Below, one piece after another: positions 23,305-49,826 of a stretch of DNA of 64,000 nt (position 1 is the first letter of the stretch; each line of letters begins with the position of its first letter). Under the pieces are notes generated by a model. It was not told the origin of the DNA. It made no database searches and worked only from the letters and a program-made list of their open reading frames with translations. The DNA is from Microlunatus capsulatus (GTDB lineage: Bacteria > Actinomycetota > Actinomycetes > Propionibacteriales > Propionibacteriaceae), in assembly GCF_017876495.1 (NCBI RefSeq), contig NZ_JAGIOB010000001.1:1178001-1242000 (forward strand), written 5' to 3'. Both the position numbers and the translations under genes were made by a program.

Positions 23305-23829
23305 ATGCCCCAGTTCGACGAGACCATCACCGCCAACATCGCCACGTCCCTCACCGAGATCCCCCACCCCTCGCTGCCCAAGGGCAGCAGCATCTACGGC
23401 GGCACCAAGATCTTCCCCGACTACCAGGCGTCGGAGGGCCAGTCCTACTTCACCCTGGTGCACGGCATCGCCCACGAGTCCTCGGTCAGCTTCGTCGCGG
23501 TGCTGCAGGCCACCCGCGCGCTGCGCAAGGGCTTCGAGTCGGTCCTCTACTTCTACGGCCCGGGCTCCATCAACTGCCTGGCCACCCGCGGGTTCCCCAC
23601 CACCGGCGACTCCGCCTTCCCGGGCGAGCAGAACCTCAACGACTCCATCGCCACCTTCATCGGCGAGGGCGGCACGGTCTTCTGCTGCCGCTTCGGCCTG
23701 GCCCTGCACGGCGGCCGCGAGGAGGACCTCATCGAGGGCGTCATCCCCTGCCACCCGCTGGACGTCCAGGACGCCGTCATCCACTACGCCAACAAGGGCG
23801 CGATCATCAACTCCACCTACATGGTCTGA
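23305..23829 (+). CDS. MSMEG_0572/Sll0783 family nitrogen starvation response protein
   Basis: 174 residues, first gene of an eight-gene Nit1C-type operon. Soluble, no signal peptide. Recognisable by GSSIYGGTKIFPDYQASEGQ, YFYGPGSINCLATRG and the CCRFGLALHGGREEDLIEGV stretch; the predicted fold resembles DsrE-like small proteins. Biochemical role unknown, but the gene family is induced on nitrogen starvation and goes with nitrilase genes in cyanobacteria, mycobacteria and proteobacteria. RBS caggagg lies 8 bp before the ATG. The next gene starts 31 bp later. Confidence 0.9.
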   Translation: MPQFDETITANIATSLTEIPHPSLPKGSSIYGGTKIFPDYQASEGQSYFTLVHGIAHESSVSFVAVLQATRALRKGFESVLYFYGPGSINCLATRGFPTTGDSAFPGEQNLNDSIATFIGEGGTVFCCRFGLALHGGREEDLIEGVIPCHPLDVQDAVIHYANKGAIINSTYMV

Positions 23830-23860: not shown

Positions 23861-24919
23861 ATGAGCACCAGCACCCGCGTCGACCTGGCCATCCTGGGCG
23901 TCCGCGGCCGGGCCCCGGTCAGCCGGGTGGCCGGCGCCGGACCCAGCGACGACGGCCACCTGCTGATCGACGGCCTCGGCGCCGCGCTGCCGATCAATGA
24001 CACCAGCCCCTACCTGCTCGACGACCGGGGCCGGATCACCCTCGACGGCGCCGACATCGGGCTGGACGTCGGCCTCGTCCCGCGGCCGCGGTTCTACGAC
24101 CTCAGCACCGCCGACGGGGTCCCCTACGAGAAGATCGCCCGGCTGCACGGCGCGGACGTGCTGGCCACGACCGTCGTCCAGACCTGCGTCCGCTACGCCG
24201 AGGACCAGCGCTGCCGCTTCTGCGCCATCGAGGCCTCGCTGACCGCGGGCAGCACCGTCGCGGTGAAGAAGCCGGCCGACCTCGCCGAGGTGGCGGCCGC
24301 GGCCGTCGCGCACGACGGGGTCCGGCAGATGGTCATGACGACCGGCACCTCCGCCGGCCGCGACCGCGGGGCCACCCACCTCGCCCGCTGCGTCCGCGCG
24401 GTCAAGGCCGCCGTGCCGTGGCTGCCGGTGCAGGTGCAGTGCGAGCCGCCGGGCGACCTGGCCACGATCACCGAGCTGCGCGAGGCCGGGGCCGACTCCA
24501 TCGGGATCCACGTCGAGTCGCTCGACGACGGGGTCCGCCGCCGCTGGATGCCGGGCAAGGGGGCCGTCAGCCTGGACGAGTACCGGGCGGCCTGGGTCGA
24601 GGCGGTCCGGGTGTTCGGCCGCAACCAGGTCTCGACGTACCTCATCGTCGGGCTGGGCGAGGACCCCGACGAGCTGGTCGCCGGCGCCGCCGAGCTGGTC
24701 GCCCTGGGGGTCTACCCCTTCGTCGTGCCCTTCCGGCCGCTGGCCGGCACCCTGGCCACGACGGTGGACGGCGTCGGCGCCCCCGACCCGGCGGTCGTGG
24801 CCGACGTCACCGCCCGGGTGGCCCGGCTGCTGCTGGCGGCGGGGATGGGCTCGGACGGCCAGAAGGCCGGCTGCGCGGCCTGCGGCGCCTGCAGCACGCT
24901 CAAGACGCTGGGGGCCTGA
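23861..24919 (+). CDS. MSMEG_0568 family radical SAM protein (Nit1C)
   Basis: 352 residues. A radical S-adenosylmethionine enzyme whose [4Fe-4S] ligands are C109, C118 and C121, a CX8CX2C spacing instead of CX3CX2C, within the motif CVRYAEDQRCRFC. A biotin-synthase-like TIM barrel follows (VQCEPPGDLATITELREAGADSIGIHVESLD). The C-terminus carries a second Cys triad, C338-x2-C341-x2-C344, a plausible auxiliary cluster site. The substrate is unknown in every organism. ATG with aggag upstream; stop one base before the next GTG. Confidence 0.92.
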   Translation: MSTSTRVDLAILGVRGRAPVSRVAGAGPSDDGHLLIDGLGAALPINDTSPYLLDDRGRITLDGADIGLDVGLVPRPRFYDLSTADGVPYEKIARLHGADVLATTVVQTCVRYAEDQRCRFCAIEASLTAGSTVAVKKPADLAEVAAAAVAHDGVRQMVMTTGTSAGRDRGATHLARCVRAVKAAVPWLPVQVQCEPPGDLATITELREAGADSIGIHVESLDDGVRRRWMPGKGAVSLDEYRAAWVEAVRVFGRNQVSTYLIVGLGEDPDELVAGAAELVALGVYPFVVPFRPLAGTLATTVDGVGAPDPAVVADVTARVARLLLAAGMGSDGQKAGCAACGACSTLKTLGA

Positions 24920-24920
24920 G

Positions 24921-26333
24921 GTGACCTTCGACGTCGAGGTGCTGACCCGGGGACCGCGGCACGCCCCGCCCGCCGCGCCGGCCGTCACGGTCGCCGTCGC
25001 GGTCTCGGCGGCCGAGCGGGACGCGGCCGCCCGGCTGCGGCACGCCACCTTCGTCGAGGAGCAGGGCCTGTTCGCCCGGCACGACCGCGACGACGCCGAC
25101 GACGACGCCCGCGCCCTCACCCTGGTGGCCCGCGACGGCTCCGGCGCCGTGCTGGGCACCGTGCGGCTGGCCCCGGCCACCGCCGTCGACGTGGGCTGGT
25201 GGACCGGCAGCCGGCTGGCCGTCCGGCCCGACGCCCGGGGGCACGCGCTGGGCGTCGGCTCGGCCCTGGTGCGGGCGGCCTGCGCCCACGCCGAGGCCCG
25301 CGGGGTGCTCCGCTTCGACGCCCACGTGCAGCGGCAGAACGCCCGCCTGTTCACCCGGCTGGGCTGGCGGGCGCTGGACGAAGAGCAGGTGCACGGCCAC
25401 CCGCACGTGCTGATGACCTGGCCCGTCCACCGGGTCGCCGACCTCGTCGCCCGGACCAAGGCCCCGCTGGGTGCCACCCTCGCCACCCTCGGCGGCGGCG
25501 CGGCCGGCCTCGGCGGCCCCGGCTTCCGGGGCGACGACGGCGCCCCGGTGCCCGGCAGCGACCTCGTCGCGGCCACCGACGCCGTCCTGCCCTCGATGGT
25601 GGAGCGCGACCCGGAGTGGGCCGGCTGGTGCGCGGTGCTGGTCAACCTCAACGACCTCGCCGCGATGGGCGCGGAGCCGGTGGGCCTGCTCGACGCCCTC
25701 GGGGCCCGCGACCGCTCCTTCGCCACCCGCGTGGTGCACGGCCTGGCCGCGGCCGCCCGGGCCTGGGACGTCCCCGTGCTGGGCGGGCACACCCAGCTGG
25801 GCGTCCCCGCCGCGCTCTCGGTGACGGCGCTGGGCCGCACGGACCGCCCCGTCCCCGGCGGCGGCGGCCGGCCCGGTCACGCCGTCCGGCTGACGGCCGA
25901 CCTCGGCGGCCGCTGGCGCGCCGGCTACACCGGGCAGCAGTGGGACTCCACCAGCGGCCGGACCACCGCCGAGCTCCGGGCGATGGGCTCCGCCGTGGCC
26001 CGCACCGCCCCCGCGGCGGCCAAGGACGTCAGCATGGCCGGCGTCGTCGGCACCCTCGGCATGCTCGCCGAGGCGAGCGGCTGCGGGGCCACCCTGGACG
26101 TCGCCGACGTCCCGCGCCCCGCCGGCGCCACCGCCGGGGACTGGCTGACCTGCTTCCCCGGCTTCGCGATGCTCACCGCCGACGCCCCGGGCGCCGAGCC
26201 GGCCTCCGCCGGCCCGGCCACGTCCGCGGTCTGCGGCACCCTGCACGACACCCCCGGGGTCTCCCTGCGCTGGCCCGACGGCCGGCTCACCGAGGCCCTC
26301 TCCCCCCACGTCACCGGACTAGGACCCGCATGA
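24921..26333 (+). CDS. GNAT acetyltransferase - AIR synthase-related fusion (MSMEG_0567/Sll0787 family)
   Basis: 470 residues, GTG start one base after the radical SAM gene. Residues about 20-170 form a GNAT acyltransferase domain (LAVRPDARGHALGVGSALVRAA is the acyl-CoA loop region; N-terminal AARLRHATFVEEQG). Residues about 185-470 resemble PurM/AIR synthase-like ATP-binding enzymes (GDDGAPVPGSDLVAATD, LVNLNDLAAMGAEPVGLLDAL). In some bacteria these are two separate genes (nitE and nitF of Nit1C); here they are fused. Suggests a nucleotide-dependent step coupled to acylation. Ends in a 4-nt ATGA overlap with the nitrilase. Confidence 0.9.
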   Translation: MTFDVEVLTRGPRHAPPAAPAVTVAVAVSAAERDAAARLRHATFVEEQGLFARHDRDDADDDARALTLVARDGSGAVLGTVRLAPATAVDVGWWTGSRLAVRPDARGHALGVGSALVRAACAHAEARGVLRFDAHVQRQNARLFTRLGWRALDEEQVHGHPHVLMTWPVHRVADLVARTKAPLGATLATLGGGAAGLGGPGFRGDDGAPVPGSDLVAATDAVLPSMVERDPEWAGWCAVLVNLNDLAAMGAEPVGLLDALGARDRSFATRVVHGLAAAARAWDVPVLGGHTQLGVPAALSVTALGRTDRPVPGGGGRPGHAVRLTADLGGRWRAGYTGQQWDSTSGRTTAELRAMGSAVARTAPAAAKDVSMAGVVGTLGMLAEASGCGATLDVADVPRPAGATAGDWLTCFPGFAMLTADAPGAEPASAGPATSAVCGTLHDTPGVSLRWPDGRLTEALSPHVTGLGPA

Positions 26334-27256
26334 GCCGTTCACCGAGCACGTCGACCACCATCATCACCGCCGTCTCGGCGGCCTTCGGGCGCGACCTCGA
26401 GGAGGCCTACGCCGCCATCGCCACGATCGCCATCGAGGCCCGCGAGCGCGGCACCGACCTGCTGGTGCTGCCCGAGGCGTGCCTCGGCGGCTACCTGCCC
26501 AGCCTCGGCAACGCGGGCGACGACGCCGAGACCCGCGCCCGCCGGGCCCGCGACCTGCCGCCGGCCCTGGAGCTCGACGGCCCCGAGCTCCGCCGGGTCG
26601 CAGGGCTCGCGGGCGACATGCTCGTGCTGGTCGGCATCCGCGAGGCCGCCGGCGCGGACACCTACAACACCGCCGTCGCCCTCACCGGCGACGGGGTGCT
26701 GGCCACCCACCGCAAGGTGCACCAGCCGCTCGGGGAGAACCTCTGCTACGCCGCGAGCGACGGCTTCGCGGCCTTCGACTCCCCCGTCGGCCGGATGGGC
26801 ATGCTCATCTGCTACGACAAGGCCTTCCCCGAGGCCTCCCGCACCCTCGCCCTCGACGGCGCCGAGATCATCGCCGCGCTGTCGGCCTGGCCGGCGGCCC
26901 GCACGGCGACGGCGGCGAACCTGGAGGACGACCGCTGGAAGAAGCGCCACGACCTCTACGACGCCGCCCGGGCGCTGGACAACCAGGTGGTCTGGGTGGC
27001 CTCCAACCAGGCCGGCACCTTCGGCTCCCTGCGGTTCGTCGGCAGCGCCAAGGTGGTCGGGCCGGGCGGTGAGGTGCTGGCCGCGACCGGCGTCGGACCG
27101 GGCCTGGCCACCGCCGCCGTCGACGTCCCGGCCGTGCTGGCCGGCGCGCGGGGCGGGATGTACGCCCTGCGCGACCGCCGGCCCTCGGCCTACCGGCTCG
27201 ACGCCGTCCTGGGCGACTACGAGCCCGCGCCCCGGCCGGAGCCGTCCTATGCCTGA
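26330..27256 (+). CDS. Nit1 family nitrilase (active-site complete)
   Basis: 308 residues of the carbon-nitrogen hydrolase superfamily, hydrolysing a C-N bond such as a nitrile (or cyanide in cyanotrophic relatives). All catalytic residues are present: E49 (LLVLPEACLGGY), K129 (THRKVHQP), the second Glu in QPLGEN (E136) and nucleophile C161 (GMLICYDKAFPE). Members assemble into spiral filaments. This is the catalytic member of the cluster; a degenerate paralogue lies two genes downstream. Substrate here cannot be fixed without assay. Confidence 0.93.
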   Translation: MSRSPSTSTTIITAVSAAFGRDLEEAYAAIATIAIEARERGTDLLVLPEACLGGYLPSLGNAGDDAETRARRARDLPPALELDGPELRRVAGLAGDMLVLVGIREAAGADTYNTAVALTGDGVLATHRKVHQPLGENLCYAASDGFAAFDSPVGRMGMLICYDKAFPEASRTLALDGAEIIAALSAWPAARTATAANLEDDRWKKRHDLYDAARALDNQVVWVASNQAGTFGSLRFVGSAKVVGPGGEVLAATGVGPGLATAAVDVPAVLAGARGGMYALRDRRPSAYRLDAVLGDYEPAPRPEPSYA

Positions 27257-27539
27257 GATGACCTTCACCACGCGCTGGCCCGACGGCGGCGAGCTGGTCA
27301 GCTACTCCCCCTCGCTGGTCGTGCACGACCACCTGGAGGTGGGCGAGCGGTACGCCGTCGCGGACTTCCTCGCCCGCTCCCGCACGGCGCTGGGGACCGC
27401 GAGCGAGCGGGTGCGGGCCCGCTACGGCGTCCCCTGCTCCCGGGCGGCCGCATCCCTGGCGGTCATCGAGGCGCGCGCCGCCGGCGTGGCCGGCGAGGTC
27501 GAGGTCACCGCGCTCCGACCGGCGCGGGAGGCACGGTGA
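27249..27539 (+). CDS. MSMEG_0570 family nitrogen starvation response protein
   Basis: 96 residues, small soluble protein of unknown function that travels with the Nit1C cluster (nitG position). Conserved start MTFTTRWPDGGELVSYSPSLVV, then VGERYAVADFLARSRTALGTASERVRARYG. ATG 27249 overlaps the nitrilase by 8 bp; ATG 27258 would start at MTFTTRW and avoid most overlap, and is equally possible. Its stop overlaps the next GTG. Confidence 0.88.
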   Translation: MPEMTFTTRWPDGGELVSYSPSLVVHDHLEVGERYAVADFLARSRTALGTASERVRARYGVPCSRAAASLAVIEARAAGVAGEVEVTALRPAREAR

Positions 27540-28813
27540 GCACGGCCGCGCCCCGGCACGTGCCCGTGGTCGTCGTCGGCGCGGGCCAGGCCGGCCTGTC
27601 GGCCAGCTGGTACCTGACCCGGCACGGCGTCGAGCACCTGGTGCTGGAGCGGGACACCGCCGCCCACGCCTGGCGGGACAGCCGCTGGGACCACTTCACC
27701 CTCGTCACCCCCAACTGGCAGTGCCGGCTGCCGGGCTTCCCCTACCCCGGCCCCGACCCCGACGGCTTCATGACCCGCGAGCAGGTGCTCGCCTACCTGG
27801 CCGACTACGTGGCGCTGGTCGACCCGCCGCTGCGCGAGCACGTCACCGTCACCTCGGTGCAGCAGGACGGGTCCGGCGGGTTCCTCGTCAGCACCCGCTC
27901 GGCGAGCGGTGACGTCGAGGTGCTGCGGGCCGACCACGTCGTCGTGGCCACCGGCGGCTACCACGACCCGCACGTGCCGCGGCTGGCCGACCGGCTGCCG
28001 GAGGACCTCGTGCAGGTGCACTCCTCGGCCTACCGGCACGCCGACGCCCTGCCGCCGGGCGCGGTGCTGGTGGTGGGCAGCGGCCAGTCGGGCGCCCAGA
28101 TCGCGGAGGACCTGCACCTGGAGGGCCGCCGGGTGCACCTCGTCGTCGGCTCGGCGCCCCGGGTCGCGCGGTTCTACCGCGGCCGCGACTGCGTGGCCTG
28201 GCTGGAGGACATGGGCACCTACGACGTGCCGGTGCAGCAGCAGCCCGGCGGGCTGGCGGCGCGCGAGAAGACCAACCACTACGTGACCGGGCGCGACGGC
28301 GGCCGCGACATCGACCTGCGGGCCTTCGCCCGTGACGGGATGCGGTTGCACGGCCGGCTGCTCGGCTGCACCGGCACCCGTCTCGCGCTGGCCCCCACCC
28401 TGGAGGCGTCGCTGGACGCCGCCGACGCGGTGGCCGAGTCGATCAAGGACGCGATCGACGTGCACATCGCGAAGCTGGGCCTGGACGCCCCGACCGAGCC
28501 GCGCTACGTGCCGGTGTGGCGGCCGGAGTCCGAGAGCACCGCGCTGGACCTGGCAGCGGAGGGCATCACCTCGGTGGTCTGGGCGGTGGGCTTCCGGAGC
28601 AACTTCCGCTGGCTGCGGGTGCCCGTCTTCGACGGCGAGGGCCAGCCCTGCCACGAGCGCGGCGTCACCGCCGTCGAGGGCCTCTACTTCCTGGGCCTGC
28701 CGTGGCTGCACACCTGGGGCTCGGGCCGGTTCGCCGGCGTCGACCGCGACGCCGCGCACGTCGTCGAGCACCTCGCCGCGCGGGTCCGCACGCCGCAGGC
28801 CGCGCTCGGCTGA
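27536..28813 (+). CDS. MSMEG_0569 family flavin-dependent oxidoreductase (Nit1C)
   Basis: 425 residues, GTG start overlapping the previous stop (GTGA). Class B flavin monooxygenase-like enzyme: FAD-binding VVVVGAGQAGLSASWYL (residues 10-26), and a second Rossmann motif VLVVGSGQSGAQIAEDL for NADPH. Predicted to oxygenate or dehydrogenate the substrate of the pathway; none is proven. It corresponds to nitH in other descriptions of the cluster. The pseudo-nitrilase begins 2 bp after its stop. Confidence 0.9.
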   Translation: MSTAAPRHVPVVVVGAGQAGLSASWYLTRHGVEHLVLERDTAAHAWRDSRWDHFTLVTPNWQCRLPGFPYPGPDPDGFMTREQVLAYLADYVALVDPPLREHVTVTSVQQDGSGGFLVSTRSASGDVEVLRADHVVVATGGYHDPHVPRLADRLPEDLVQVHSSAYRHADALPPGAVLVVGSGQSGAQIAEDLHLEGRRVHLVVGSAPRVARFYRGRDCVAWLEDMGTYDVPVQQQPGGLAAREKTNHYVTGRDGGRDIDLRAFARDGMRLHGRLLGCTGTRLALAPTLEASLDAADAVAESIKDAIDVHIAKLGLDAPTEPRYVPVWRPESESTALDLAAEGITSVVWAVGFRSNFRWLRVPVFDGEGQPCHERGVTAVEGLYFLGLPWLHTWGSGRFAGVDRDAAHVVEHLAARVRTPQAALG

Positions 28814-28815
28814 GG

Positions 28816-29688
28816 ATGGCGCTCACCCGCATCGGCGCCGTCGCGGGCCACTTCGGCCGCGACGTGGACCGCACGCTGGCCAAGCTCGCCGGGATCGTCG
28901 CCGCGGCCCGGCGCGACGGGCTCGACCTGCTCGTGCTGCCCGGCGCCACCCTCGGCGGCTACATCCCCGACCTGCGCCACCCCGGCCGCGACGACCTGCC
29001 CCCGGTGCTGGCCCTCGACGGCCCCGAGCTGGCGGCGCTGCGGCGGATGGCCGGCCCGCTGACGCTCTGCGTCGGCTTCTGCGAGGAGGCCGACGGGCGG
29101 CGCTACAACACCGCGGTCTGCCTCAGCGGCGACGGGCTCCTCGGCCACCACCGCAAGGTCCACCAGCCCGCCGGCGAGCACTTCGCCTACGCGGCCGGCG
29201 ACCGCTTCGCCGCCTTCGACACCCCGGTGGGCCGGCTGGGCCTGCTCGTCGACTACGACAAGACCTTCCCGGAGTCGACGCGCACCCTGGCCCTCGACGG
29301 GGCCCGCGTCGTCGCCGCGCTGTCGGCCTGGCCGGCCAGCGTCACCGACCGGGCGGCCCGGATCACCGAGGACCGGCAGTCCCGGCTGTTCGACCTGTAC
29401 GACGCGGCCCGGGCGGCCGAGAACCAGGTGGTGCTCGCCTCGGCCAACCAGACCGGCGTGCTGGGCGACCTCCGCTTCCTCGGCCAGGCCAAGGTCGTGG
29501 GCCCGGGCGGCGACGTGCTGGCCCGCACCTGGTCCAAGGGCGCGCTGGCCCGCGCCGACCTCGACGTCGACGCCGAGGTCGACCGGGCCCGCCGGGTGCT
29601 CTCCCACCTGGCCGAGCGCCGACCGGCCGCCTACCGGCTGGACGCCCCCGCCCCGCCCGGCGCGGCCGTCCCGGGGGCCACGGGATGA
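28816..29688 (+). CDS. Second nitrilase paralogue lacking catalytic Glu and Cys (probable pseudoenzyme)
   Basis: 290 residues, clearly homologous to the upstream nitrilase (shared HRKVHQP, YDKxFPExxRTLALDGA, LSAWPA, LYDAARAxxNQVV). Two of four active-site residues are replaced: Gly43 in LLVLPGATLGGY (Glu49 in the active copy) and Asp146 in GLLVDYDKTFPE (Cys161). K114 and the following Glu (QPAGEH) are kept. The frame is intact, with no stop or frameshift, and it is embedded by 2-bp and 4-bp junctions in the operon, so it is probably expressed. It may be a structural or regulatory partner in nitrilase filaments, or a binder of the substrate. Confidence 0.88.
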   Translation: MALTRIGAVAGHFGRDVDRTLAKLAGIVAAARRDGLDLLVLPGATLGGYIPDLRHPGRDDLPPVLALDGPELAALRRMAGPLTLCVGFCEEADGRRYNTAVCLSGDGLLGHHRKVHQPAGEHFAYAAGDRFAAFDTPVGRLGLLVDYDKTFPESTRTLALDGARVVAALSAWPASVTDRAARITEDRQSRLFDLYDAARAAENQVVLASANQTGVLGDLRFLGQAKVVGPGGDVLARTWSKGALARADLDVDAEVDRARRVLSHLAERRPAAYRLDAPAPPGAAVPGATG

Positions 29689-30776
29689 GGCTCGCGCTGC
29701 TCACCTACTCGACGAAGCCGCGCGGGGGCGTGGTGCACACGCTGGCCCTGGCCGAGGCGCTGGCGGCCCTGGGCGTCGACGTCACCGTGTGGACGCTGGG
29801 CCGGGGCGGGGACGCCGACTTCTTCCGGCCCGTCGACCCGGCCGTCCGCGTCCGGGTCGTCGACTTCCCCGCGGTGGACGGCGAGGCCGTGGGCGCGCGC
29901 ATCGTCCGCTCGATCGCCACGCTCCGGGCCGCCTTCGACGCCCACCTCGCCGCGGGCGGGACCTACGACGTCGTGCACGCGCAGGACTGCATCAGCGCGA
30001 ACGCGGTGGAGCGGTGCGTGCGGACCGTCCACCACCTCGACCACTTCACGACCCCCGAGCTGGCCGCCTGCCACGAGCGGGCCGTCGTCCGGCCCTCGGC
30101 GCTGGTCTGCGTGTCGGCCTCGGTGGCGCGCGAGGTGGAGCAGGGCTGGGGGCGCCACCCCACCGTCATCGGCAACGGCGTCGAGGCGGAGCGGTTCGCG
30201 GCCGCGGCGCAGGACCACGCCGGGCAGCAGCACTGGCGCGACCGCGTCGGCGAGCGGTACGTGCTGGCCGTCGGCGGGATCGAGCCGCGCAAGGGCAGCC
30301 TGGACCTGCTGGAGGCGGTGGCCCGGCTGCGGGTCGACGACCCCGGGCTGGAGCTGGTGGTCGCGGGCGGGGAGACCCTCTTCGACTACCGCGACTACCG
30401 GGCGGCCTTCGACGACCGGGCCCGCGCGCTGGGCGTGGTGCCGCAGGTCCTCGGCCCCGTCGAGCACGCGGCGCTGCCGTCGCTGGTCGCCGGCTGCGGG
30501 GCCCTGGGCTTCGTCTCCACCCAGGAGGGCTTCGGGCTGGCGGCGATGGAGGCACTGGCCGCCGACGTCCCCGTCGTCGTCCGCGACCTGCCGGTGATGG
30601 CGGAGGTGTTCGGGCCGCACGTGCGCTACGGCTCGGACCCGGCGGGCATGGCGGTGGCCCTGCGGGCGGCTCTCGACGAGGGCCCGCTGCCCGGCGGCCA
30701 GGCCTTCGCCCGCCGGCACACCTGGGCCGCCGCGGCCCGCGCGCACCTCGCCTTCTACGCCGCCCGGGAACCTTGA
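29685..30776 (+). CDS. MSMEG_0565 family glycosyltransferase (GT4-like)
   Basis: 363 residues, starting in a 4-nt overlap with the pseudo-nitrilase. GT-B fold: N-terminal LALLTYSTKPRGGVVHTLALAEAL, then VHAQDCISANAV, and the C-terminal donor-binding site with VLAVGGIEPRKG and the E-x7-E motif as TQEGFGLAAMEALAADVPVV. Resembles nucleotide-sugar or phosphosugar transferases of family GT4. The end product of the Nit1C cluster may therefore be glycosylated, but the acceptor is unknown. Last gene of the operon. Confidence 0.9.
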   Translation: MRLALLTYSTKPRGGVVHTLALAEALAALGVDVTVWTLGRGGDADFFRPVDPAVRVRVVDFPAVDGEAVGARIVRSIATLRAAFDAHLAAGGTYDVVHAQDCISANAVERCVRTVHHLDHFTTPELAACHERAVVRPSALVCVSASVAREVEQGWGRHPTVIGNGVEAERFAAAAQDHAGQQHWRDRVGERYVLAVGGIEPRKGSLDLLEAVARLRVDDPGLELVVAGGETLFDYRDYRAAFDDRARALGVVPQVLGPVEHAALPSLVAGCGALGFVSTQEGFGLAAMEALAADVPVVVRDLPVMAEVFGPHVRYGSDPAGMAVALRAALDEGPLPGGQAFARRHTWAAAARAHLAFYAAREP

Positions 30777-49016: not shown

Positions 49017-49826
49017 TCAGCGTGGGGTCTGGCCGACGTCGTCCCAGCCCTGCTGCGGGGTGGCGCAGGAGTCGCGGAAGACGTACTGGGATACCAGCTT
49101 GCGCTGGTGGCTGGACCAGTCGATGGCCGGTCGGCGCTGCTCGGCGGGCAGGTAGCCCAGCCGGTAGACCGCCATCAGCTCCAGCTCGTCGGGGACGCCG
49201 AAGAGCTTCTCGATCCGCGCCCACTGGCCCGGCACCTCCATCGGGAAGGAGATGAACTGGATGCCCATCCCGAGCTCAACGGTGGTCAGCCAGACGTTCT
49301 CCATCGCCGCGCCCATGCTGAACACGGAGTAGAAGGACGACAGCTCCCCGGGCCGGTACTCGGCGCGGTCCAGCATCACGCCGAGCAGCAGCGGCGAGCC
49401 CGCCACCAGCTTGCGGTTCTCCTCGCCCAGGGTGTGCGGCACCCGCAGCGTGTTCATCAGCCGCTGGCCGCGCGCGGTGAACACCTGCTTGGTGAACGGC
49501 CGCAGCGGCGCCGGCAGCTTGTCGAAGAGCATCCCGTCGCGGCGGGACTCCATCTCCTCGGCGCTGAAGCGGAAGTACCGCTTGTAGCGCTCGAAGAACG
49601 TGCCGTTCGACATCGCCTCGGTCATGCTCTCGCCGCTGATCGCCGCCACCTGCTCGACGACGCCGCGGTCCTCGGTGATGACGAAGCGCCACGGCTGGCT
49701 GTTGAGCTGCGACGGCGCCCGCCCCGCCACCTCCATCAGCAGCTTCTGGTGCTCAGGCGTCACCGGGTCGGGCAGGAACGGCCCGTTGGTGGTCTTGCGC
49801 CGCCGGACGACGTCGAGGAACTCCAT
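49017..49826 (-). CDS. Nitroreductase family protein
   Basis: 269 residues, FMN-dependent NAD(P)H oxidoreductase fold. Family features: [17 protein letters not shown] at the N-terminus (RR motif binding FMN phosphate), [13 protein letters not shown], and [10 protein letters not shown] near the second FMN contact. Longer than minimal nitroreductases by a helical insertion (residues about 65-130). Members reduce nitro compounds, flavins or unsaturated bonds. The next gene upstream ends 2 bp before its start, so it may belong to the type III PKS operon. Confidence 0.87.

Follow-up and report, generated by a model that had tools for sequence, protein, structure and literature searches.

The gpr cluster of Mycobacterium smegmatis (MSMEG_0565-0572) is induced by GlnR during nitrogen starvation (PMC6039565, PMC4222082, PMC3662644), its levels also go up when nitrogen is limiting (PMC4617892), and its deletion results in peroxide sensitivity (PMC6039565). 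One of its genes, MSMEG_0566, is among those induced (PMC4222082, PMC4617892), and its product has been described as a putative aliphatic amidase with a possible part in nitrogen assimilation (PMC6039565). The second described system resembling the locus reported here is Nit1C, described as confined to subfamily-1 nitrilases (Podar et al. 2005, PMC1199592), which has in common with our locus the radical SAM, GNAT, AIR-synthase-like and flavin oxidoreductase genes and, in some species, a glycosyltransferase gene. In the passages of the gpr and Nit1C literature cited here, no description of the cluster product was found.

The DNA analysed here (the window) is a stretch of 64,000 nucleotides from Microlunatus capsulatus, in which an operon of these families runs in the order 0572, 0568, 0567, nitA, 0570, 0569, nitB and 0565 types. 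The names nitA and nitB are our own labels, unrelated to the Pseudomonas genes so called. The features are as follows:

23305..23829, + strand: MSMEG_0572/Sll0783-family protein, with which the cluster opens (TIGR04044; start codon read from the sequence)
23861..24919, + strand: MSMEG_0568-family radical SAM protein (TIGR04043, 506 bits; start codon approximate)
24921..26333, + strand: MSMEG_0567-type GNAT and AIR-synthase-like protein (TIGR04045, TIGR04050)
26330..27256, + strand: nitA, the intact paralogue, 308 aa, with E49/K129/E136/C161 (PF00795; not TIGR04048)
27249..27539, + strand: MSMEG_0570-family small protein (TIGR04042)
27536..28813, + strand: MSMEG_0569-family flavin-dependent oxidoreductase (TIGR04046, 648 bits)
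28816..29688, + strand: nitB, a nitrilase-fold protein with G43/K114/E121/D146 in place of the Glu/Lys/Glu/Cys set (PF00795, 107.3 bits)
29251..29253, + strand: codon of Asp146 (GAC), where the nucleophile Cys would be encoded
29685..30776, + strand: MSMEG_0565-family glycosyltransferase (TIGR04047, 424 bits; cut-off 259.85)

The six cluster genes besides nitA and nitB all score above their NCBIfam cut-offs, and each of the families of the MSMEG_0565-0572 cluster (TIGR04042, 04043, 04044, 04045, 04046, 04047 and 04050) is matched over its cut-off. In mycobacterial loci the order is 0572, nitA, 0570, 0569, 0568, 0567, nitB, 0565, an arrangement that the MSMEG numbers, the NCBIfam names and the published labels all fit, and the M. 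smegmatis counterpart of nitB, placed by synteny alone, is MSMEG_0566. Where the earlier note spoke of a Nit1C operon, our searches indicate otherwise. The scores against TIGR04048 (NitC) were 42.8 bits for nitA and 19.2 bits for nitB, with a cut-off of 502.6, and no match above this cut-off was found in a search of the whole genome, so that identity with the canonical Nit1C nitrilase was rejected. Because Nit1C is described as restricted to subfamily-1 nitrilases (PMC1199592) and NitC is absent here, we consider the window cluster a variant of Nit1C, carrying instead a nitA/nitB pair from another branch of the family.

The UGA of MSMEG_0571 was proposed to encode selenocysteine and to be read into the downstream genes (PMC6039565). 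In the window the TGA of nitA falls inside the next gene (the 27249-27256 overlap) in a different frame, and readthrough would not, as judged from these frames, produce a fusion with it. Searches of the window with two GlnR-box-like patterns found no site where the cluster begins; the first pattern matched once, at 49817 (chance expectation about 0.6), and the second had 0 matches.

The earlier note had described a second nitrilase homologue two genes after the normal one, in an intact frame and joined to its neighbours by 2-bp and 4-bp junctions, and the coordinates bear this out exactly. By open reading frame check, nitB encodes 290 aa without an internal stop; it starts after a 2-bp gap from the end of the FAD gene at 28813, and its stop overlaps the ATG of the glycosyltransferase gene (29685) by 4 bp, as ATGA. 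The residues were also as described, with E49, K129 and C161 present in nitA, and Gly43, Lys114 and Asp146 in nitB, in which the second Glu is E121. The two proteins are 57% identical and, as judged from their alignment, descend from a common ancestor. By fold, nitB belongs to the nitrilase superfamily: its PF00795 score compares with a cut-off of 23.2, and the same profile matches 66/66 members of an alignment of 60 nitB and 6 nitA proteins. The structure model of nitB has a confident nitrilase fold (pLDDT 92.1), and its top Foldseek match is an N-carbamoylputrescine amidohydrolase (5h8l, TM 0.83); both this model and that of nitA are single chains. With that enzyme and the Pyrococcus amidase (5h8l, 6ypa, 1j31) nitB has in common the fold, the Lys and the second Glu; these structures, however, carry Glu and Cys (or an engineered variant) where the nitB family carries Gly or Asp and Asp. 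In a HMMER profile alignment the Asp column aligns, in fact, with the Cys of 1j31 and with the Ala of 7ovg and 6ypa, the latter titled a C146A variant of an amidase. A Pfam search of nitB-family proteins gave no match besides PF00795 and no effector domain.

Enzymes of the nitrilase family form a thioester through the catalytic Cys. Given this mechanism, a protein such as nitB that lacks the Cys could not form the thioester, and nitB is probably an old, non-hydrolytic member of the nitrilase superfamily. The published label of MSMEG_0566 is that of a putative amidase, whereas the nitB family has neither the nucleophile nor the base, and we believe that the amidase label is probably wrong. Our findings hence question the annotation of a family induced by nitrogen starvation, whose records read carbon-nitrogen hydrolase or aliphatic amidase.

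Whether one looks at the homologues at large or at the loci, the replacement is a property of a family and not of one genome. Among 271 non-redundant homologues (E no higher than 1e-40, 230 residues or more, redundancy removed), 152 have the Glu-Lys-Glu-Cys (EKEC) set and 119 have Asp at the nucleophile position, the latter divided into 101 DKED, 11 GKED, 2 HKED, 2 YKED, 1 NKED, 1 QKED and 1 DKDD. In these 119 rows the nucleophile Cys and the first Glu are absent throughout, Asp146 and the catalytic Lys114 are present in 119/119 and Glu121 in 118/119, and position 43 is Asp in 102, Gly in 11, His in 2, Tyr in 2, Asn in 1 and Gln in 1. A mixed state, with only one of Cys and Glu changed, was seen in none of the 271 homologues, a result which also draws on whole-protein genome searches, from which only part of the matches came as loci. 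In the 92 nitB rows other than that of the window, Asp146 and Lys114 are each found in 92/92, and position 43 is Asp (82), Gly (5), His (2), Tyr (2) or Asn (1), while 76/77 nitA rows have Glu, Lys and Cys, and the remaining one is a fragment. The contig scan is biased towards the Asp type, since one of its six nitB peptide patterns includes the Asp and, of 314 relatives, the best 80 were kept. The codon of Asp146 is GAC in 105/107 nitB reads and GAT in 2/107, in a set for which the motif used for picking presupposes Asp. Some genomes appear in several of our searches, so that the samples overlap (three of the loci, L009, L077 and L146, are the same gene), and, as the genomes are related, the counts are not independent events.

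The change from Glu to Gly43 highlighted in the earlier note is true of the window but not the norm of the family. Gly43 is a lineage-specific state, seen in the genus to which the window belongs and in six genomes from one family (f118), and Asp43 is the commonest one. Sequencing error, which had been named as a possible refutation, is unlikely, because a relative of the same genus (G011) has Gly43 and Asp146 at 93% identity, and because Asp occupies the nucleophile position in 119 of the 271 homologues. In the tree (IQ-TREE, 95 rows) the Asp-type rows form one clade with support of 100/98, which includes a genome of another class (G468); this genome is the only match among 148 genomes of its class, and the cross-class span of the clade rests on it. 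According to the tree and alignments, the nucleophile Cys and the base Glu were both replaced on the stem branch of this one clade, with no intermediate seen. The cluster itself is already known as gpr; we found in the open-access literature no report of catalytic loss in the nitB family, and nothing relevant on inactive or pseudoenzyme nitrilases. The nitA/nitB pair is not specific to the window genome, and the observation is larger than first stated, as it concerns a clade kept by many actinobacteria beside a glycosyltransferase.

The earlier note had asked for the selection on the paralogue to be measured. The median omega of nitB was 0.058, with a range of 0.022-0.129 (pairwise NG86 over 19 genome pairs, in which nitB dS reaches about 1.1), the highest value being that of the window against its close relative G011. 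Median values were 0.073 for nitA, 0.149 for the glycosyltransferase and 0.036 for the MSMEG_0572 gene, and nitB had the lower omega in 12/19 pairs when compared with nitA. Over the same 74 loci, using full-length genes, the mean distance was 0.335 for nitB and 0.418 for nitA. These substitution patterns point firmly to strong purifying selection on nitB, under a constraint which, by the same measures, appears at least equal to that on nitA; relaxed selection is contradicted, and a paralogue lacking the Cys mechanism is indeed kept in a tight operon, as had been proposed. Loss of the nucleophile, in other words, does not prevent a nitrilase from being conserved as tightly as its intact paralogue, or more so. 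With segments chosen by us and with Asp and Cys rows drawn from differently sampled sets, the entropy of the segments holding the catalytic residues was 0.34 bits in nitB, versus 1.01 elsewhere in the protein, and 0.72 versus 1.38 in the Cys rows. Because these segments are more conserved than the rest, the predicted pocket of nitB may still bind a ligand, and because the pocket is under so much constraint we favour a ligand or a chemistry over a bare scaffold. Ten positions are nearly invariant in 96 Asp rows (at least 97%) and rare in 126 Cys rows (at most 15%), among them Asp146, Thr150, Arg179, Leu191 and Gln224.

The steadiest neighbour of nitB is the glycosyltransferase and not nitA. A glycosyltransferase of the MSMEG_0565 type was found in 93/93 nitB loci, window included, in at least three gene orders, and it overlaps nitB or sits within 20 bp of it in 83/93, with starts placed by alignment that in 17/93 fall on a codon other than ATG, GTG or TTG. 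For the same 93 loci, nitA lies in the locus in 78, elsewhere in the genome in 10, and on other contigs in 5; contig breaks may explain four of these five, and in the remaining one (L050) nitA and nitB are truly apart, each being far from the ends of a large contig. In the window's genus, 5/20 genomes had high-scoring matches to nitA or nitB and all five had both. In an even sample of the class (393 genomes), 32 genomes had nitB and 31 of these had nitA, and the glycosyltransferase gene came directly after nitB in 30/32; in one genome (G1076) it was on a different contig from nitB. The coupling of genes that would be expected of an auxiliary protein of the glycosyltransferase is what these 93/93 loci and 30/32 genomes display, and the pair of paralogues together with the adjacent glycosyltransferase offers a concrete handle on the cluster.

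The association does have exceptions on both sides. Sixteen genomes of the class sample had nitA without nitB, with the glycosyltransferase in 16/16 loci: G976, G829 of family f118, and 14 more f118 genomes, which carry a different flavin oxidoreductase and whose absences may be one or two losses. Loss in relatives, another refutation that had been anticipated, does occur in these genomes, but in the window's own genus the five genomes with high-scoring matches all have both genes. In one genome (G821), which has nitB, a nitA search at E 1e-60 found nothing and no glycosyltransferase scored above the TIGR04047 cut-off. In a sample of the phylum, 7/396 genomes passed the MSMEG_0567 C-terminal cut-off; five had nitB and the glycosyltransferase, and two (G195 and G216) had neither. 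Ten clusters of the order of G195, these two included, had the core genes and nitA, no nitB, and no glycosyltransferase in the locus, the latter absence being read from the loci (that of G195 is cut by a contig end) and, for G195 and G216, from a whole-genome search. The strict rule by which nitB and the glycosyltransferase would imply each other was rejected, as it failed on G238 and on the wider class sample, and is now a tendency; the strict rule that nitB always occurs with nitA was rejected on account of G821. nitB usually stays with the glycosyltransferase, and either can persist alone.

Several other arrangements were seen among the loci. In 16 clusters (L233-L248 except L239 and L241, plus L250 and L135) another FAD oxidoreductase, of about 530 aa, replaces MSMEG_0569, and 14/16 of these have nitA and the glycosyltransferase without nitB. 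A third type of cluster, found in G238 (L153) and G262 (L155), combines a related glycosyltransferase with genes like MSMEG_0572, 0568 and 0567, with neither a nitA nor a nitB homologue in the two loci; the 0568-like and 0572-like genes of L153 flank a PF04909 amidohydrolase. Three Williamsia genomes (L036, L039 and L041) have two nitA copies each, one in the nitB cluster, which lacks MSMEG_0569, and the other elsewhere, in the case of L039 beside MSMEG_0569 in a further locus (L168). The nitB of G821 (L231:8842-10834) has an aldose-1-epimerase gene 1 bp downstream, a neighbour seen beside nitB only in this genome among the 154 long loci scanned.

Comparison of evolutionary distances between the genes, for which 17/91 loci were dropped for missing full-length genes, gave correlations with nitB of 0.82 for the glycosyltransferase, 0.82 for MSMEG_0568, 0.81 for MSMEG_0567 and 0.69 for nitA. 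The partial correlations, which control for the remaining genes, are confounded by linkage and transfer and were weighed as weak, were 0.54 for MSMEG_0572, 0.32 for MSMEG_0568, 0.27 for the glycosyltransferase, 0.24 for MSMEG_0569, 0.16 for MSMEG_0567 and -0.23 for nitA (5-95% range -0.33 to -0.06), while the distances of nitA track those of the flavin oxidoreductase, with a partial correlation of 0.84. Weakly, and at the level of sequence divergence, this test speaks against nitA as a close partner, but it does not point to the glycosyltransferase in particular; the case for the latter rests mainly on adjacency, and adjacency can mean co-transfer rather than contact.

Our tentative preference, held with less than even confidence, is that nitB is a non-hydrolytic protein with a working pocket that serves the neighbouring glycosyltransferase in a glycosylation step. 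With the Cys and Glu replaced, and Lys114, Asp146 and nearly all Glu121 kept, a putative pocket formed by Lys114, Glu121 and Asp146 would bind a ligand; the ligand might be an intermediate that the core genes (radical SAM, AIR-synthase-like, nitA and flavin oxidoreductase) produce, and nitB might then activate the MSMEG_0565-type glycosyltransferase, or perhaps pass the intermediate to it. A parallel is found in DesVIII and EryCII, P450 homologues that lack the Cys ligating the haem and activate their partner glycosyltransferases (PMC3391682). The likeness, that of an enzyme fold minus a key residue and tied to a glycosyltransferase, is a functional analogy and not a membership: the fold is another one, and the pocket of nitB is highly conserved. 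As the pocket region of EryCII is mobile, the analogy with nitB is partial. The glycosyltransferase role is supported by the ten clusters with no glycosyltransferase in the locus, in which nitB is absent in 10/10, all of one order. It is weakened by the 16 class-sample genomes that keep nitA and the glycosyltransferase without nitB, by G238 and G262, where a related glycosyltransferase occurs without nitB, by the nitB of G821, with no TIGR04047 match over the cut-off, and by a partial correlation with the glycosyltransferase that falls below those with MSMEG_0572 and MSMEG_0568. The distance test, with its higher values for MSMEG_0572 and MSMEG_0568, and the small number of loci in which nitB is truly apart from nitA weigh somewhat against this reading and in favour of those of a partnership with nitA and of sensing.

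Two other explanations are close rivals of the glycosyltransferase role, and sequence cannot separate the three. Next in our ranking, possible but on balance doubtful, is that nitB is a new nitrilase-fold enzyme in which a cluster intermediate would be acted on by Asp146, with Lys114 and Glu121, through general acid/base catalysis or through a covalent carboxylate. The near-perfect retention of these three residues, the ten positions specific to Asp rows (e.g. Thr150, Arg179, Leu191 and Gln224), a constraint at least as strong as that on nitA, and the aldose-1-epimerase gene adjoining the orphan nitB of G821 are all consistent with it; however, at position 43, the place of the first acid, Gly, His, Tyr, Asn and Gln also occur, and no such enzyme was found in the open-access literature. 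That these residues form an active site of a new kind, acting on a cluster metabolite just before glycosylation, we hold to be rather unlikely, although, if true, an Asp-based nitB would found a non-hydrolytic enzyme class in a superfamily thought to be Cys-dependent. Placed after the new-enzyme explanation, and also more doubtful than not, is that nitB is a prozyme of nitA, co-assembling through the dimer surface and tuning activity or filaments. For each of the 93 nitB loci nitA is present in the locus or the genome, and the two proteins have the same ancestry and fold; moreover, helices 146-150, 152-160 and 187-203, which we take to be the dimer surface in the nitrilase superfamily, are largely alike in both. 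A prozyme would never be found without its active paralogue, and this pattern was seen in 31/32 class-sample genomes, but in G821 no second match appears at E 1e-60; nitA, in turn, occurs without nitB in the ten clusters of one order and in 16 class-sample genomes, and a purely structural partner need not retain Lys114, Glu121 and Asp146. Co-assembly with nitA, the role suggested in the earlier note, is thus possible but not favoured, given the negative partial correlation between the two genes and the glycosyltransferase found in every nitB locus. A sensing or regulatory role in which nitB touches neither nitA nor the glycosyltransferase, for example by binding a metabolite of nitrogen starvation, is in our opinion improbable. 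In its favour, the cluster in M. smegmatis is GlnR-induced (PMC6039565, PMC4222082, PMC3662644) and up in nitrogen limitation (PMC4617892), and nitB distances track the MSMEG_0572 gene best, but PF00795 is the sole Pfam match of the protein, which has no effector domain. The loss of the catalytic Cys and Glu and the absence of the gene in some lineages could also come from decay of an unselected duplicate or from a sequencing error; this explanation was rejected as very improbable in view of an omega that stays low in all 19 pairs, of a single clade with a member genome in another class, and of Asp in 119 rows.

Two loci bear on how these genes travel. One, titled Acidobacteriaceae bacterium isolate BOG_194 (L065), has a nitB cluster on a contig labelled Acidobacteriota, and its nitB groups in the tree with that of Nocardia macrotermitis, which suggests contamination or a recent transfer. 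The other is the Rhodococcus qingshengii plasmid pN9T4-1 (L158), of 565 kb, which carries the whole eight-gene cluster within a few kb of a transposase gene and a recombinase gene, and this suggests that the cluster moves horizontally as a unit.
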